Shown here piece after piece: positions 3,978-59,370 of a DNA stretch of 60,342 nucleotides. Source of the stretch: a virus; IMG/VR virus record IMGVR_UViG_3300005613_000071, positions 1 to 60,342 of that record, one strand, 5' to 3'. The notes beneath the pieces are model-generated. The model saw only the letters and a list, made by a program, of their open reading frames with translations, was not told where the DNA came from and made no database searches. How positions within the stretch are numbered: the first letter of the stretch is position 1; the number at the start of each line of letters is the position of its first letter. A program made the translations under genes and the position numbers.

Positions 3978-4488
3978 ATACAAATTTAAGGTAACAAACA
4001 TTCGCGGTAAAAATTACGTCGAAGTCAACGAGCGTATCAAATTCTTTCGTCAGGAAGAGCAGTATAAAAACTGGGGTATTCTCACGGAGTTCCCAGTGCT
4101 TGACTCAGAGCAGTGCCTATGCTTGTGCACCATCACTACACCCGATGGTCAAATCGTAGCACAAGGCCACGCTCACGAGGAAAAGAGTTCATCTAACATC
4201 AACAAGACAAGCTATGTCGAAAACTGCGAGACCTCAGCCGTCGGACGTGCCTTGGCAATGCTCGGAATCGGAATCGACACGTCTATTGCATCAGCTAATG
4301 AAGTCTCAGACGCCATTGCTAAGCAAGACGCGAGTCCCTCTGCTCCGACAGAGAACATCATGGACAAAGCCGTGACGTACATCAAGGGGCAGTCCAATAA
4401 GCAGAAGGCTTTCGATAGCATCCTCACCAAGTATGGGGACCAGCTATCTGAGAAGCAAGTAGCAGGCCTCAAAAAGTTCGTGCGATGA
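3970..4488 (+). CDS. Single-strand annealing protein (ERF/Rad52-like family)
   Basis: The protein (172 aa) carries the segment VENCETSAVGRALAMLGIG at about residues 78-96 after a beta-rich N terminus. This pattern is typical of the ERF/Sak-type annealing proteins of phages, which anneal complementary single strands during recombination-dependent replication. The RecE-like exonuclease gene follows one gene later and an SSB-like gene two genes later, which is the usual recombination module. The C-terminal tail (about 115-172) is a small helical extension. The family assignment is from motif recall and not from a search. Confidence 0.65.
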   Translation: MSEYKFKVTNIRGKNYVEVNERIKFFRQEEQYKNWGILTEFPVLDSEQCLCLCTITTPDGQIVAQGHAHEEKSSSNINKTSYVENCETSAVGRALAMLGIGIDTSIASANEVSDAIAKQDASPSAPTENIMDKAVTYIKGQSNKQKAFDSILTKYGDQLSEKQVAGLKKFVR

Positions 4489-6806: not shown

Positions 6807-8562
6807 TGCTGTACGATCGGGTGATAAGGACGCGAAGAAAAAACTTCCTGTCGTATGCTTTAGCGGTGAGTTTGCGTCACGTGCAGACGATGCTCTATTC
6901 GAGCACAGCGGACTCATTGTTCTGGACTTTGACCACATTGATGTTGACAAATCCAAGAGCGTACTTGCCACGGACAGCTATGTATTTGGGTGCTGGGTTT
7001 CACCGAGTGGTGATGGGCTCAAGGCTCTGGTAAGAGTCACCAATCCTGAGCGACACAGAGACCACTTCCGAGCCCTACGTACGTACTTCCACAAGCAATA
7101 CGACCTTGAGGTTGACGAGTCAGGCATCAACGAGTCTCGTGCATGCTTCGAGTCCTACGACCCAGAGCTAAGCCTCAACCCAGACTGCAAGAAGTTCGGG
7201 GCGTTTGCCACCGAGCGTAGCGAACAAGTGCAAGAGGCTAAGCGAGGAGAGTTCACGGACTACATGAAGCTCAACCTTGCAGCGCGTATGATACGCCAAG
7301 CAGATGACGGAGAGAAGCACGCAGCCCTACTGAAGTCTGCTAAGCTTGTGGGTGGGTACATCTCAGCAGGACGCATCGAAGAGGAGGAGGCTGTGCGCAT
7401 TCTCTTCCGCGAGATTTGCAAGCGTGATATCGACAGCGAGCAGGCGGCTATGACAACCATCCGTCAGGCTATCGAGGTAGGCAAGAACATGCCCATCCGC
7501 GAAGTCATAGACAATGAACAAGATGCACAGCGTGATCTGCTCATCAACGACGGAGACATGTCATTCATCTCATCCGATGACGAAGACTTCCGATGGATCG
7601 ACGACTACGCCAACGGCAAGATTCCTGTAGGCTTAGATACTGGTGACGACAAGCTAGACAACTACTTCCGTTACAAGAAGGAATTCGTTATCATGAATGG
7701 ACACTCGAACGTAGGTAAGACAACCTTCGCTCTTTACATGATGGTGAACTCAGCCGTGAGGCACGGGTGGAAATGGGTAGTGTACTCCTCGGAGAACCGC
7801 ACAGCCTCTCTGAAGATGTCTCTCATGCAGTTCGCGGTCAACAGGAAGATCGGGGACATGACGTATGAGCAGCGTCGGACGGCGTACAAGTGGGTGAACG
7901 AGCACTTCACAGTCATCAGCAACAACCAAGTGTACTCTTACTCAGACATCCTCGTCTTCCTTGAGAAGATCGTGCGTCAGCAGGAGTGTGATGCTGTGTT
8001 CGTGGATCCCTACAACAGTCTCAAGATTGAGCTTTCAGGCAATGGCAACTCTCACGACTACCATTACCAAGCTGCTTCAGAGTTCTTGACTTTCTCCAAT
8101 GCAAACAACGTAGCGGTGTGGCTTAATATGCACGCTGTCACCGAGGCTCAACGCCGCAAGGGTGATGACGGGTTGCCTGTAGCTCCGTATGCAGAGGACA
8201 CAGAGGGTGGTGGTAAGTTCGTGAACCGAGCAGACTGCTTCATCACGATACACCGCAAGGTGCAAGCCCCAGATCACAACATCAAGAAAACTACTGAGCT
8301 GCACATCAGAAAGGTGCGCGAGACAGAGACAGGAGGACAGCCTACACCTATCGACGACCCGATAACGTTCACAATGAACACATCGCACACAGCTTTCAGA
8401 ATCAACACGACAGGGAGCGAGCTGTTCCAAGGTGTTGACAAGCAGTTCGATAAGTACAAGCAGTTCAACATGCCCTCTAACAGTCTATTCTTAGAAAATT
8501 CCGCTGTAACTTCGCATAGTGAAGCGACAAAGCAAAGGAACTTCGAAGAAGAAGTCCGCTAA
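6697..8562 (+). CDS. Bifunctional primase-helicase (VirE-N/BT4734-like plus DnaB-like ATPase)
   Basis: The N-terminal 175 residues match the BT4734/VirE-N type primase-associated domain: VCFSGEF, LIVLDFDHID and SPSGDGLKALVRV are its conserved blocks. The C-terminal half is a RecA-fold helicase of the DnaB/RepA type with Walker A GHSNVGKTT at about residues 335-343 and Walker B AVFVDPYNSL at about 434-443, followed by a MHAVTEAQRRKG segment. It would unwind DNA and prime at the phage fork. The ATG at 6697 begins MKVTFFKDV, a normal start for this family, despite the 110-bp overlap with the DUF3310 gene. The last 44 bp overlap the next gene. Confidence 0.85.
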   Translation: MKVTFFKDVFDKDAPHHVNVMTALDRIKTGQSKTTIDAVRSGDKDAKKKLPVVCFSGEFASRADDALFEHSGLIVLDFDHIDVDKSKSVLATDSYVFGCWVSPSGDGLKALVRVTNPERHRDHFRALRTYFHKQYDLEVDESGINESRACFESYDPELSLNPDCKKFGAFATERSEQVQEAKRGEFTDYMKLNLAARMIRQADDGEKHAALLKSAKLVGGYISAGRIEEEEAVRILFREICKRDIDSEQAAMTTIRQAIEVGKNMPIREVIDNEQDAQRDLLINDGDMSFISSDDEDFRWIDDYANGKIPVGLDTGDDKLDNYFRYKKEFVIMNGHSNVGKTTFALYMMVNSAVRHGWKWVVYSSENRTASLKMSLMQFAVNRKIGDMTYEQRRTAYKWVNEHFTVISNNQVYSYSDILVFLEKIVRQQECDAVFVDPYNSLKIELSGNGNSHDYHYQAASEFLTFSNANNVAVWLNMHAVTEAQRRKGDDGLPVAPYAEDTEGGGKFVNRADCFITIHRKVQAPDHNIKKTTELHIRKVRETETGGQPTPIDDPITFTMNTSHTAFRINTTGSELFQGVDKQFDKYKQFNMPSNSLFLENSAVTSHSEATKQRNFEEEVR

Positions 8563-55911: not shown

Positions 55912-55963
55912 CAGAGCCATCGGCAATCGGTTGGTGGCATTCAAACTTCAAACTTCATCTCCG

Positions 55964-56527
55964 ATGAACAACAATCAATCTCGTATCAACCTCCTCAAGG
56001 AGGTTAAGTCAGCAGTCAACACTGCTTCGTTCGCTCCAACCTCAGACCGCATCGAAGATGCGAAGAAGGCGGTTCAGGAACTCATGTCATACGTCGAATC
56101 CCTCGAAGAGGGACTGAAGCCAAAGCGTCGTCGTAAGACGAAGCAGAAGTCTTCCAAGGCTACCCCAGCTACCAAGGTAGCAGACCGCCAAGAGAAGGCT
56201 TTCCATGGCCGTCCTGACACTCCTGTCACACCATCCACACGGAAGCCGAAGGCTTCGGTCGAGGCGGCTCGGAAAGCGGCTCACGACGTGTCACGTCACA
56301 CAGGGGCTGAAAGCCGAGCCAAGCGGAAAGCCGAGGCAGTCAAGGAGGCTGTCGTCATGCCGAAGGCCGCACCTATGAAGGTGACATCACATGATGAGGC
56401 TCGATTGGCCGACCTCGAAGCTAAGATTGAGGCTCTGATTGCCTTGCAATCCATGGGGCATGACGTTACACGTTCTGCTGAAGTACTCTTCAGCGACCTC
56501 CCCTTCGACCCTACTTCAAACCTCTAA
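55964..56527 (+). CDS. Basic Ala/Lys-rich early protein (187 aa)
   Basis: The frame is open from 55880, but that ATG lies upstream of the promoter, so the ATG at 55964, after the leader motif, is used. The centre (residues 50-130) is rich in K, R, A, T and P with repeats like KPKRRRKTKQKSSK, a disordered nucleic-acid-binding tract similar to histone tails. Both ends are helical. It is the first gene of the early operon. It could coat phage DNA or affect host transcription, but neither can be shown. Confidence 0.7.
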   Translation: MNNNQSRINLLKEVKSAVNTASFAPTSDRIEDAKKAVQELMSYVESLEEGLKPKRRRKTKQKSSKATPATKVADRQEKAFHGRPDTPVTPSTRKPKASVEAARKAAHDVSRHTGAESRAKRKAEAVKEAVVMPKAAPMKVTSHDEARLADLEAKIEALIALQSMGHDVTRSAEVLFSDLPFDPTSNL

Positions 56528-56696: not shown

Positions 56697-56701
56697 CCCT
56701 T

Positions 56702-56760
56702 GAGTGGGGGAGTATATACACCTTCTGAGTTTACGAAGAAGGTGATATACGACCCCTCTC
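56702..56760 (+). ncRNA. Conserved tandem-GA hairpin element, copy 1
   Basis: The core is GTATAT, a bulged A, CACCTTCT, loop GAGTTTACGA, then AGAAGGTG and ATATAC (56712-56750), a near-perfect hairpin. A GA at 56710-56711 and a GA at 56751-56752 form a tandem GA internal loop, and GGGG/CCCC continues the stem outward. In the terminal loop, GA and GA again flank a G-C pair with a UUUA tetraloop. It lies between 56696 and the leader of the next gene. Confidence 0.75.
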
Positions 56761-56796
56761 TCTAACTCGAAATTCAAACTTCAAAATTCAATCATC

Positions 56797-57000
56797 ATGT
56801 CAAACGTTTCAGACATCATCGACTCCGTCATCGCTTCAGGTTACATGACAAGTGTAGACGTATACAAGACGTTCGAGGACTCCGAAGCCGAACGGAAGTA
56901 CATCCTCAAGTATCACTTGGACGAAGAACTTGAGCAGTTCTTGATGTGCAAGGCAATGGAGGATGCTCTCACCCCCAAGCCTGACAAGCCCCCATACTGA
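56797..57000 (+). CDS. Small acidic early protein (67 aa)
   Basis: A helical, acidic protein following the tandem-GA hairpin and a leader TTCAAACTTCAAA. It ends 7 bp before the first hammerhead ribozyme. No family is recognised. The leader position is the main support for the start at 56797. Confidence 0.6.
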   Translation: MSNVSDIIDSVIASGYMTSVDVYKTFEDSEAERKYILKYHLDEELEQFLMCKAMEDALTPKPDKPPY

Positions 57001-57007
57001 CATCACA

Positions 57008-57060
57008 GGTACACTGATGAGCCTTGATTAGGCGAAACACCCCCTTGGGGTGTCTGTATC
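57008..57060 (+). ncRNA. Hammerhead ribozyme 1 (type I)
   Basis: Stem I is GGTACA (57008-57013) with TGTATC (57055-57060). The core CTGATGA is at 57014-57020. Stem II is GCCT/AGGC (57021-57024 with 57030-57033). GAAA is at 57034-57037. Stem III is CACCCC/GGGGTG (57038-57043 with 57047-57052), followed by TC, with cleavage expected after C57054. All invariant core positions are present. The 5' cleavage product would leave UGUAUCAAACUUCAAA as the start of the next gene's mRNA. Confidence 0.88.
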
Positions 57061-57080
57061 AAACTTCAAATCTGTTCACC

Positions 57081-57209
57081 ATGAACCCTTCCAAACTCCA
57101 AGCCATCCTCGACATGTTCGAAACCTTCGGTGCTGACGTGATGTGTAACACCTCTGACTGGTGTGACCTGACCTGCGAAGAGCAGATGATTGTCGAGGCC
57201 AACCTGTAA
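57081..57209 (+). CDS. Small acidic early protein (42 aa)
   Basis: A 42-residue helical protein with cysteines at 22, 28 and 32. It starts 21 bp after the first ribozyme, following the leader CAAACTTCAAA, and its stop codon directly abuts the second ribozyme. The start is supported by the leader. It is a candidate anti-host peptide, but function is unknown. Confidence 0.6.
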   Translation: MNPSKLQAILDMFETFGADVMCNTSDWCDLTCEEQMIVEANL

Positions 57210-57261
57210 GGTACACTGACGAGTCCTCAATGGACGAAACACCCTTCGGGGTGTCTGTATC
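57210..57261 (+). ncRNA. Hammerhead ribozyme 2 (type I)
   Basis: Stem I is GGTACA (57210-57215) with TGTATC (57256-57261). The core CTGACGA is at 57216-57222, where position 7 varies as allowed. Stem II is GTCC/GGAC (57223-57226 with 57232-57235), GAAA at 57236-57239, stem III CACCC/GGGTG around TTCG (57240-57253), then TC with cleavage after C57255. Stems II and III differ from ribozyme 1 by compensatory changes, which supports selection on structure. It begins right after the stop of the 42-residue gene. Confidence 0.9.
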
Positions 57262-57280
57262 AAACTTCAATTCATCAGAG

Positions 57281-57463
57281 ATGAACACATATCATTACAT
57301 CATCTACTACCAGCGTGACCGCGACGATTGGCGCGATGGTCATATCACGGCTAACAGCCTCGAAGAGGCCTTGAGCAAGTGTCACTACAACTTCCGTCAC
57401 ACTCCGTGGACCTTGAAGAAGGTGGAGTTGGTAAAAGATAACTCGTTGATTGTCAACGCATAA
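57281..57463 (+). CDS. Small early protein (60 aa)
   Basis: The ATG at 57281 follows the second ribozyme by 19 bp with the leader CAAACTTCAA. The protein has a YHYIIYYQRDRDDWRDG start and resembles a small beta-alpha domain. It is unrecognised. Next comes a 24-residue membrane peptide gene. Confidence 0.55.
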   Translation: MNTYHYIIYYQRDRDDWRDGHITANSLEEALSKCHYNFRHTPWTLKKVELVKDNSLIVNA

Positions 57464-57549: not shown

Positions 57550-57553
57550 AATA

Positions 57554-57611
57554 GAGAGGTGAGTATATATACCTTCTGAGTTTACGAAGAAGGTAATATA
57601 CGAACCCTCTC
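57554..57611 (+). ncRNA. Conserved tandem-GA hairpin element, copy 2
   Basis: Same element as copy 1: the loop GAGTTTACGA and the bulged A are unchanged. The first core base pair changes from C-G to T-A (TACCTTCT/AGAAGGTA), and the outer stem changes from GGGG/CCCC to GAGAGG/CCTCTC, both keeping pairing. The GA/GA internal loop is at 57561-57562 and 57602-57603. A leader with TCAAACTTCAAACTTCAAA follows directly. Confidence 0.75.
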
Positions 57612-57637
57612 AAATGTCAAACTTCAAACTTCAAATC

Positions 57638-58514: not shown

Positions 58515-58526
58515 AGTTTGACCATC

Positions 58527-58608
58527 GAGGGGGCAGAGCAAATAACTCATGTCGGGTAAATACCATAGCTCTTACGGCTGAAACGTCAGTCCGCCCCCTC
58601 ACTTTTTT
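58527..58608 (+). ncRNA. Three-way-junction RNA ending in a terminator-like T-run
   Basis: An outer 8-bp stem GAGGGGGC/GCCCCCTC (58527-58534 with 58593-58600) encloses a stem AGAGC/GCTCT (58535-58539 with 58568-58572) and a second stem GG-CTGA/TCAG-T-CC (58576-58581 with 58586-58592). Inside the first, GGTA/TACC pairs around AA. The closing stem is followed by a run of Ts at 58603-58608. It could be a small RNA, a riboswitch or a processed leader. It is not any known class that I recognise. Confidence 0.5.
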
Positions 58609-58609
58609 C

Positions 58610-58689
58610 AAGGGAGCGCAGTCGGTGCGTACATCAAGGTGTTACACGACACCAAGGATGGCAGTTGTGTTCGAATCCCAACCTCCCTT
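58610..58689 (+). other. tRNA-like element (degenerate)
   Basis: AAGGGAG (58610-58616) pairs with CTCCCTT (58683-58689). A D-arm-like CGC-AGTCGGT-GCG, an anticodon-like stem GGTGT/ACACC with a 6-nt loop, and a T-arm with loop TTCGAAT (58670-58676, one mismatch in the stem) are all present in the usual order. The D arm touches the acceptor stem directly and the variable region is long, so it is not a normal tRNA. No anticodon can be assigned. Confidence 0.4.
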
Positions 58690-58693
58690 CTAT

Positions 58694-58748
58694 GTGTGAG
58701 TGTATATACACCTTCTGAGTTTACGAAGAAGGTGATATACACGAACAC
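58694..58748 (+). ncRNA. Conserved tandem-GA hairpin element, copy 3
   Basis: Same core and loop as copies 1 and 2. Here the stem next to the GA loop is GTGTATAT/ATATACAC, two base pairs longer, and the outer stem is GTGT/ACAC. The GA/GA internal loop is at 58698-58699 and 58743-58744. The leader with CAAACTTCAAA precedes ATG 58783. Confidence 0.75.
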
Positions 58749-58782
58749 TTCAAATCATTTTCAAACTTCAAATCAATTCAGC

Positions 58783-59370
58783 ATGAAACAATATGCAGTA
58801 ATCCACGCTGTCGCAGGACTCTTCGAAGGGTACTCCGACACCACTTGCGAGTTCTTCCCCAAGCGGGGATTCGCAGAGAAGCACATCAACCAAATCCTGT
58901 CTGACTACGCAAACGATGATATGTGTGTGGACGTCAGCGGAGGGTTTGACGATGGCATTTACGCCACCATGACCCGTGACTACGAGGACTATGCGGCTTG
59001 CGTACCATCTGATATGTCGCATGACGATTGGGTTGCAGAGAATGGCGACGACGTTAGTGTCGAGGTGTTCCGCATCATCGAGGTTGATATGTCCAACCGC
59101 TCCGACTCCACCGAGTCATGTTGGTTGACGTGGGACCAACAGGATACTACCCAAGCATGGGACTACTTCCCCTTGTGTATGTCCTTGGTGGCTCGTGTCT
59201 CCTCTGATGTCATGGACAACGACCAATCGGTTCACGGCCTCGAACAACTGACGGACTTCATCTCCTCGGTATACTACGGCAGTCACGCTCTCATCGACAT
59301 CGACGACTATGTGATGCACGCTTTCCGTATCCCCAAACCAAAGAACAATGACGAAGAAACAACTGCTTGA
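58783..59370 (+). CDS. Early protein, complete paralogue of the truncated gene at 1-285 (195 aa)
   Basis: The ATG at 58783 follows hairpin 3 and the leader motif; the upstream frame back to 58639 crosses the structured RNA and is rejected. The sequence has an N-terminal beta-rich part, an acidic centre with DSTESCWLTWDQ near residue 105 and a helical C terminus. No family is recognised. Bases 59098-59220 are the exact copy of 1-123. It overlaps the next gene by 23 bp. Confidence 0.7.
   Translation: MKQYAVIHAVAGLFEGYSDTTCEFFPKRGFAEKHINQILSDYANDDMCVDVSGGFDDGIYATMTRDYEDYAACVPSDMSHDDWVAENGDDVSVEVFRIIEVDMSNRSDSTESCWLTWDQQDTTQAWDYFPLCMSLVARVSSDVMDNDQSVHGLEQLTDFISSVYYGSHALIDIDDYVMHAFRIPKPKNNDEETTA
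59098..59220 (+). repeat. Second copy of the 123-bp perfect repeat
   Basis: Identical to bases 1-123, lying inside the coding sequence at 58783-59370. Identity stops at 59221, where the downstream sequence differs from the first copy. Confidence 0.9.

Follow-up and report, generated by a model that had tools for sequence, protein, structure and literature searches.

Predicted type I hammerheads of a compact design between small genes of a Bacteroidota podovirus and other phages

The window, by which we mean the whole 60,342-base stretch of an IMG/VR virus record, contains small plus-strand genes that run rightward from position 55964, many of them overlapping. Two putative type I hammerhead (HHR) elements lie on the same strand among these genes, copy 1 (57008–57060) between a 67-aa gene (56797–57000) and a 42-aa gene (57081–57209), and copy 2 (57210–57261) between the 42-aa gene and a 60-aa gene (57281–57463). 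In copy 1, stem I (GGUACA, 57008–57013, paired with UGUAUC, 57055–57060) encloses CUGAUGA (57014–57020), stem-loop II (57021–57033; GCCU and AGGC around the loop UGAUU), GAA (57034–57036), stem-loop III (57037–57053; ACACCCC and GGGGUGU around CUU) and C57054 as C17. Copy 2 has the same stem I strands (57210–57215 and 57256–57261), followed inward by CUGACGA (57216–57222), stem-loop II (57223–57235; GUCC and GGAC around UCAAU), GAA (57236–57238), stem-loop III (57239–57254; ACACCC and GGGUGU around UUCG) and C57255 as C17. The core order of a type I hammerhead, CUGANGA, GAA and U-H, is thus present in both, as are the A15.1-U16.1 pair and an H17 residue (C, not G). Cleavage of the hammerhead fold occurs at H17, which places the predicted sites between C57054 and U57055 and between C57255 and U57256. 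The initial annotation had located every core element and both cleavage positions correctly.

Both copies share a compact design, with a 6-bp stem I that carries no bulge, an A.A apposition at position 7 (A57007 with A57061, and A57209 with A57262), and a 4-bp stem II closed by a UNANU loop. A57209 is the final base of the UAA stop codon (57207–57209) of the 42-aa gene, so that this stop abuts stem I, and the UGA stop upstream of copy 1 (56998–57000) lies 7 nt ahead of its stem I. The two HHR copies and the leaders that follow them are repeats (81% and 91% identical). Paired changes had been claimed for stems II and III; stem II bears the claim out, with two compensatory pairs between the copies (C-G to U-A and U-A to C-G), but stem III has no pair substitution, its length and loop being all that changes (7 bp with CUU versus 6 bp with UUCG). 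The matching stem I reported earlier does form a helix, but with one G.U inside it. When flanking sequence is included, the minimum-energy fold of copy 1 (−20.8 kcal/mol) is a competing one in which UCACAG pairs with CUGAUGA. A window scan found no type III HHR, and no intrinsic terminator was called at the two elements. A pseudoknot between loop II and the leader was considered and rejected by eye, the UCAAU loop of copy 2 having no complement in its own leader.

The predicted cuts would be followed by a 26-nt leader (UGUAUCAAACUUCAAAUCUGUUCACC, 57055–57080) that ends at AUG57081 and by a 25-nt leader (57256–57280) that ends at AUG57281, and together they would free a 201-nt RNA (57055–57255) with a single 42-aa frame. 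The view of the leader as a product of the ribozyme, taken in the initial annotation, does not hold, because the CAAACUUCAA leader also stands ahead of non-ribozyme genes at 55942, 56775, 57618 and 58762. Among the operon gaps listed, none that lacks an element exceeds 12 nt, and those longer than 70 nt hold either an HHR (57001–57080 and 57210–57280) or a second conserved hairpin (56697–56796, 57551–57637 and 58515–58782).

This second intergenic hairpin, at 56707–56760, 57558–57611 and 58697–58750, has the core CTTCTGAGTTTACGAAGAAG with a tandem G.A internal loop, fold z-scores of about −4.5 to −5, and compensatory changes in its arms between copies and relatives. It precedes the same CAAACTTCAA leader that follows cleavage site 1 and recurs before other genes, it was found in 14 viral stretches, and it has no Rfam family; a promoter, an RNase site and a new ribozyme are candidates for its role. 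At 58527–58608, a long GAGGGGGC...GCCCCCTC hairpin with internal structure and no Rfam match is followed by TTTTTT, and is possibly a structured RNA with a terminator. Next to it (58610–58689) is a degenerate tRNA-like sequence (AAGGGAG...TTCGAAT...CTCCCTT) that neither ARAGORN nor Rfam calls. Bases 1–123 of the window are repeated exactly at 59098–59220, after which the sequences diverge, suggesting an assembly join or a strain-variant end.

The genes around the two elements are conserved, the 67-aa gene in loci L031, L023, L129, L132 and L108, the 42-aa gene in more than 10 relatives, and the 60-aa gene likewise in relatives. HHR presence varies among close relatives. An HHR lies immediately 5' of the 42-aa gene in L031, L127, L129, L131 and L133, and immediately upstream of the 60-aa gene in L048; in L031 the 60-aa gene is preceded by an HHR and a tRNA. 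The homologue of the 42-aa gene in L124 and L128 is preceded by the second conserved hairpin in place of an HHR. Locus L023 carries tandem hammerheads (4265–4420), of which the second, in front of the 42-aa gene, has a 112-nt insert within stem-loop III. On the minus strand of L031 (about 7684–7488), a conserved hairpin, a hammerhead and a tRNA-like gene (ARAGORN, 7527–7597) precede the 60-aa homologue, and the HHR would free the 5' side of the tRNA; among the loci examined, an HHR before a tRNA was seen in L031 only.

A strict descriptor, consisting of the full core with stems I, II and III of at least 5, 4 and 6 bp, was applied to both strands. It matched exactly twice in the window and not once in 3119 dinucleotide shuffles, and a looser descriptor gave three matches over all shuffles. 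The bare CUGANGA...GAAA core occurs at chance frequency, indicating that the signal resides in the stems, and the bare pattern was dropped as evidence. Type I (stems of 5, 4 and 5) and type III descriptors likewise found nothing in 1.57 Mb of shuffled locus sequence.

The initial annotation had expected significant Rfam scores for both elements and had counted non-significant scores as refutation; taken literally, non-significant scores are what the Rfam models returned. At gathering thresholds only a tRNA was reported in the window. At relaxed thresholds, RF00163 (Hammerhead_1) scored copy 2 at 22.8 bits against a cut-off of 34 and did not report copy 1, and RF03152 (RAGATH-1 hammerhead) scored 23.9 bits for copy 1 and 19.8 bits for copy 2 against a cut-off of 56.3. 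At those gathering thresholds Rfam also reported no HHR in ten relative loci (129 kb) full of obvious HHRs, which argues that the shortfall in the window is a limit of those models. Rfam was therefore set aside as arbiter in favour of a homologue covariance model, R1, built from 33 diverse aligned phage HHRs with the window sequences left out. R1 gave 67.0 bits for copy 1 (E = 8.7e-19) and 70.2 bits for copy 2 (E = 8.2e-20) and matched nothing else in the window; these E-values are rough, and the model takes in a few sequences from close relatives of the window phage. The significance expected of a covariance model was thus obtained with one made from related phage HHRs, and its scores together with the shuffles rule out a chance origin of both elements.

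The alignments behind these scores show strong conservation of the fold. In the 33-HHR alignment, 99.6% of helix cells are paired, compared with 67% after shuffling, and the covariation score is 0.858 versus 0.182 in shuffled alignments and at most 0.113 with slid helices. A set of 21 sequences from the window phage and its close relatives has 100% of helix cells paired and 31 double-sided changes, versus 7.6 in shuffles. The A15.1-U16.1 pair is invariant in both alignments, and the CUGA.GA and GAA core, which has no Watson-Crick role, is invariant across the 33 diverse HHRs. The descriptor, R1, the covariation among 21 close and 33 distant sequences, and the conserved position between conserved small genes all support the hammerhead identity proposed in the initial annotation, both elements being complete hammerheads of type I.

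The terminase of the window phage has 50% identity to that of podovirus MW202828 and 35–39% to those of Flavobacterium elemo and Cellulophaga phages, which identifies the window as a Bacteroidota podovirus. A blastn search of the region against named phages gave no match, and BLAST of the short HHR sequences against phages gave only chance matches of hairpin length. R1 matched the Flavobacterium elemo phages at 49.6 bits and Cellulophaga phages phi18:3 and phi19:3 at about 45 bits, with no match in phi38:1, phi13:2 or MW202828. The elemo HHR site is present in 68 of 68 elemo records, and the stem II strands, GACU/AGUC in elemoE, are GGUU/AACC in elemoB, a fully compensated change. In elemoD (NC_055855.1, 14137–14207) stem II is a hybrid of these alleles (GACU with AACC) that contains two mismatches, and this HHR is likely to be a slow or inactive natural mutant.

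Pattern scans of viral contigs place the two elements in a larger population. A first scan returned at least 120 rows, and full descriptors applied to those loci yielded at least 154 unique type I HHRs; a second scan, for which stem III was the selecting feature and the sequences of stem I and loop II played no part, added at least 136. Together the scans cover at least about 225 phage DNA stretches and at least 290 distinct HHRs. In 257 Gb of bacterial and archaeal genomes, a strict version of the scan pattern occurred in only two contigs, both belonging to MAGs. Among the first-set matches listed that have sufficient flanking sequence, 132 of 142 are followed by a frame of 25 codons or more whose AUG lies within 90 nt of the cleavage site (median distance to AUG 32 nt, interquartile range 26–41), and in 103 of 142 a frame upstream stops no more than 90 nt away, the commonest spacing being directly at stem I. 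The corresponding counts on the opposite strand were 42/142 and 46/142, and random same-strand sites gave 58% and 34% with broad distances. In the second set a downstream AUG was present in 133 of the 136 matches listed, at a median of 23 nt. The HHRs listed thus lie nearly always directly after one stop and 20–40 nt ahead of the next start, with many first-set HHRs having a wider gap between the upstream stop and stem I. Up to 10 HHRs occur in one locus (second-set matches listed), and many contigs have a single HHR; the window, with two, belongs with the stretches that carry several sense-direction HHRs around small phage genes. A shared stem I within genomes, as in the window, is not supported as a rule, being found in 17% of within-contig pairs among the matches listed.

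Type III hammerheads were seen in the same kind of gap in the same loci, 28 unique ones in 26 loci (L014, L017, L019, L026, L036, L062, L139, L137 and others) and none in shuffled sequence, indicating that both topologies serve there; after cleavage of a type III element, the downstream mRNA would carry the ribozyme at its 5' end. In one lineage (L019, L044, L063, L064, L074, L099, L110, L114 and others), the 5' strand of stem I is repeated after the 3' strand, so that the mRNA produced by cleavage could fold back on itself as a hairpin at its 5' end. Such a hairpin was found in 23 of 129 first-set matches listed, versus 2.8–5.5 expected. The second-set matches listed gave 2 versus 2.4 expected and the window has none, so that the feature is lineage-specific at most.

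The compact design of the window copies prevails in the first set. Among the matches listed, 118 of 145 have a stem I of exactly 6 bp and 5 have one of 7 bp or longer, A.A occupies position 7 in 124 of 152, and 110 of 154 have a 13-nt stem-loop II, usually with a UNANU loop; the 5' A of position 7 is retained even where no stop codon overlaps it. In the first set, a UNANU loop goes together with A.A and a stem I of 6 bp in all 61 of the HHRs listed that carry it, compared with A.A in 36 of 65 others, and in the independent second set the figures are 94 of 94 for UNANU loops and 24 of 42 for the remaining matches listed. The p-values of this linkage are inflated by shared ancestry. Since the linkage holds in 155 of 155 cases although the stems vary, a contact of loop II with the end of stem I is the best explanation, and we propose that the UNANU loop probably docks on the A.A cap and takes the place of the bulge that classical type I HHRs have in stem I. 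This compact kind of HHR is abundant in aquatic phages and has been overlooked by standard RNA-family models. No earlier description of the design was found in the literature searched, a body from which subscription journals were largely absent.

From the fold, covariation, placement, conservation and loop II/A.A linkage we infer that the most likely function of the elements, with a probability of roughly 0.78, is that of active cis-acting type I HHRs that cut the rightward polycistronic transcript into near-monocistronic units. Each HHR would fold once its 53 or 52 nt leave the polymerase and cut after C57054 or C57255, by analogy with hammerhead chemistry yielding a 5'-OH and a 2',3'-cyclic phosphate. 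The upstream mRNA would then end in the ribozyme, with stem-loops II and III and the cyclic phosphate, and the downstream mRNA would start with 5'-OH-UGUAUC and run through a 25–26-nt A-rich leader to the AUG. The putative 3' hairpin may protect the upstream product, the 5'-OH end may let the downstream product resist 5'-monophosphate-dependent decay, and splitting would allow neighbouring small genes to be translated and to decay independently. Such end protection and stability, the independent expression, the tertiary contact, and co-transcriptional timing in an early operon are likewise expected rather than observed. The descriptor, R1, covariation, placement, the gap pattern, the UNANU/A.A linkage and a rise in computed accessibility of the start region upon cleavage (0.56 to 0.69 and 0.41 to 0.67) count in favour of cutting, as does the precedent of tandem prophage HHRs that cleave in vitro, one set of them also in E. 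coli (PMC3088659). The competing fold of copy 1, the missed Rfam cut-offs, the HHR-free gaps in L124 and L128, and the phages in which R1 is blank count against it. The punctuation of an early operon proposed in the initial annotation fits this evidence and has a precedent (PMC3088659), its cleavage, 5'-OH ends and early timing being predictions.

Other readings of the same features were weighed. That upstream stops most commonly abut or overlap stem I among the matches listed, as the UAA does at copy 2, could mean that stem I and the core are hidden under the ribosome as it terminates, so that cutting takes place only when upstream translation is sparse and reports on it. We regard such a switch as unlikely, because the stop at copy 1 lies 7 nt away, many of the HHRs listed have larger gaps, and compact phage genomes pack all elements tightly. 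The repeat relationship of the window copies with their leaders and the variable presence among close relatives would also be expected of a selfish or neutral ribozyme-plus-leader cassette whose copies spread into gaps and are tolerated there; the strong purifying selection that the fold shows through its compensatory changes and the stereotyped sense-strand position ahead of start codons make this improbable, and no mobility gene or target duplication was seen.

Hammerhead ligation uses a 5'-OH and a 2',3'-cyclic phosphate. The 201-nt fragment could by this established chemistry, or through RtcB, be joined into a circle encoding the 42-aa protein, its 5' UGUAUC pairing with its own 3' GGUACA, since both window HHRs have identical stem I strands. 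The low share of within-contig pairs with identical stem I (17% of those listed) and the many contigs with a single HHR make a circle very improbable, and circles sought from tandem HHRs by Perreault et al. were not found (PMC3088659). Least probable, and in our judgement scarcely tenable, is that the elements are protein-binding or structural hairpins that only resemble hammerheads. The scores below Rfam thresholds and the alternative minimum-energy fold of copy 1 would suit such hairpins, but catalysis is the simplest explanation for an unpaired core (CUGA.GA and GAA) that is invariant in 33 phage HHRs.

Transcript cutting by the HHRs thus remains the preferred reading, and we lean slightly towards a broader one, that HHRs with an A.A-capped 6-bp stem I, a 13-nt stem-loop II, a UNANU loop and a new tertiary contact form a distinct, unmodelled hammerhead subclass that serves virulent aquatic phages as a general mRNA-punctuation device, with as many as about ten of them on one genome segment, each fixing where the mRNA of one gene ends and giving the following gene its 5'-OH leader. 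A review describes the role of prokaryotic HHRs as an open question (PMC6155905), and the reason for phage hammerheads has been open since 2010–2011. The set described here bears on it, as it is sharply defined, lies below Rfam gathering thresholds, has a stereotyped position that constrains function, and offers a new, testable tertiary module. The cultured members (Flavobacterium elemo phages and Cellulophaga phi18:3 and phi19:3) open mRNA ends and ribozyme mutants to direct study.

Perreault et al. suggested in 2011 that HHRs process long phage transcripts (PMC3088659), and the window elements are a variant of that proposal. Their HHRs also flank single genes or short blocks, and ardA lies near theirs as it does near the phi18:3 HHR. 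Unlike the present set, which comes mostly from virus contigs and is uniformly compact type I with a 6-bp stem I, A.A cap and UNANU loop, theirs is from prophages, mixes types I, II and III, and often has a pseudoknot (PMC3088659). The HHphage element of haloviruses HF1 and HF2 likewise lies directly before a start codon, in the early operon of a lytic virus, where the 5' end of an early mRNA maps within 3 nt of the HHR cleavage site; unlike the window copies, its core has a two-base insertion, presumed to be an adjustment to high salt (PMC3088659). The theta (HDV-like) ribozymes of gut phages are also small self-cleaving phage RNAs, as the present elements are predicted to be, but have a different fold and are associated with tRNAs (PMC10879173), an arrangement approached here by L031 alone. 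RF00163, which includes Schistosoma-type HHRs, shares the permutation, the core and a 6-bp stem I, but its loop II consensus is not UNANU. RF03152 shares the CUGAUGAG...CGAAAC core and a strong stem III, but its upstream hairpin has no credible match in the window. In T7, RNase III processes early mRNA by intercistronic cuts into single-gene mRNAs with 3' hairpins; the phage HHRs would resemble this system in effect and not in ancestry, the cutter in T7 being a host protein, whereas here the RNA itself would cut.
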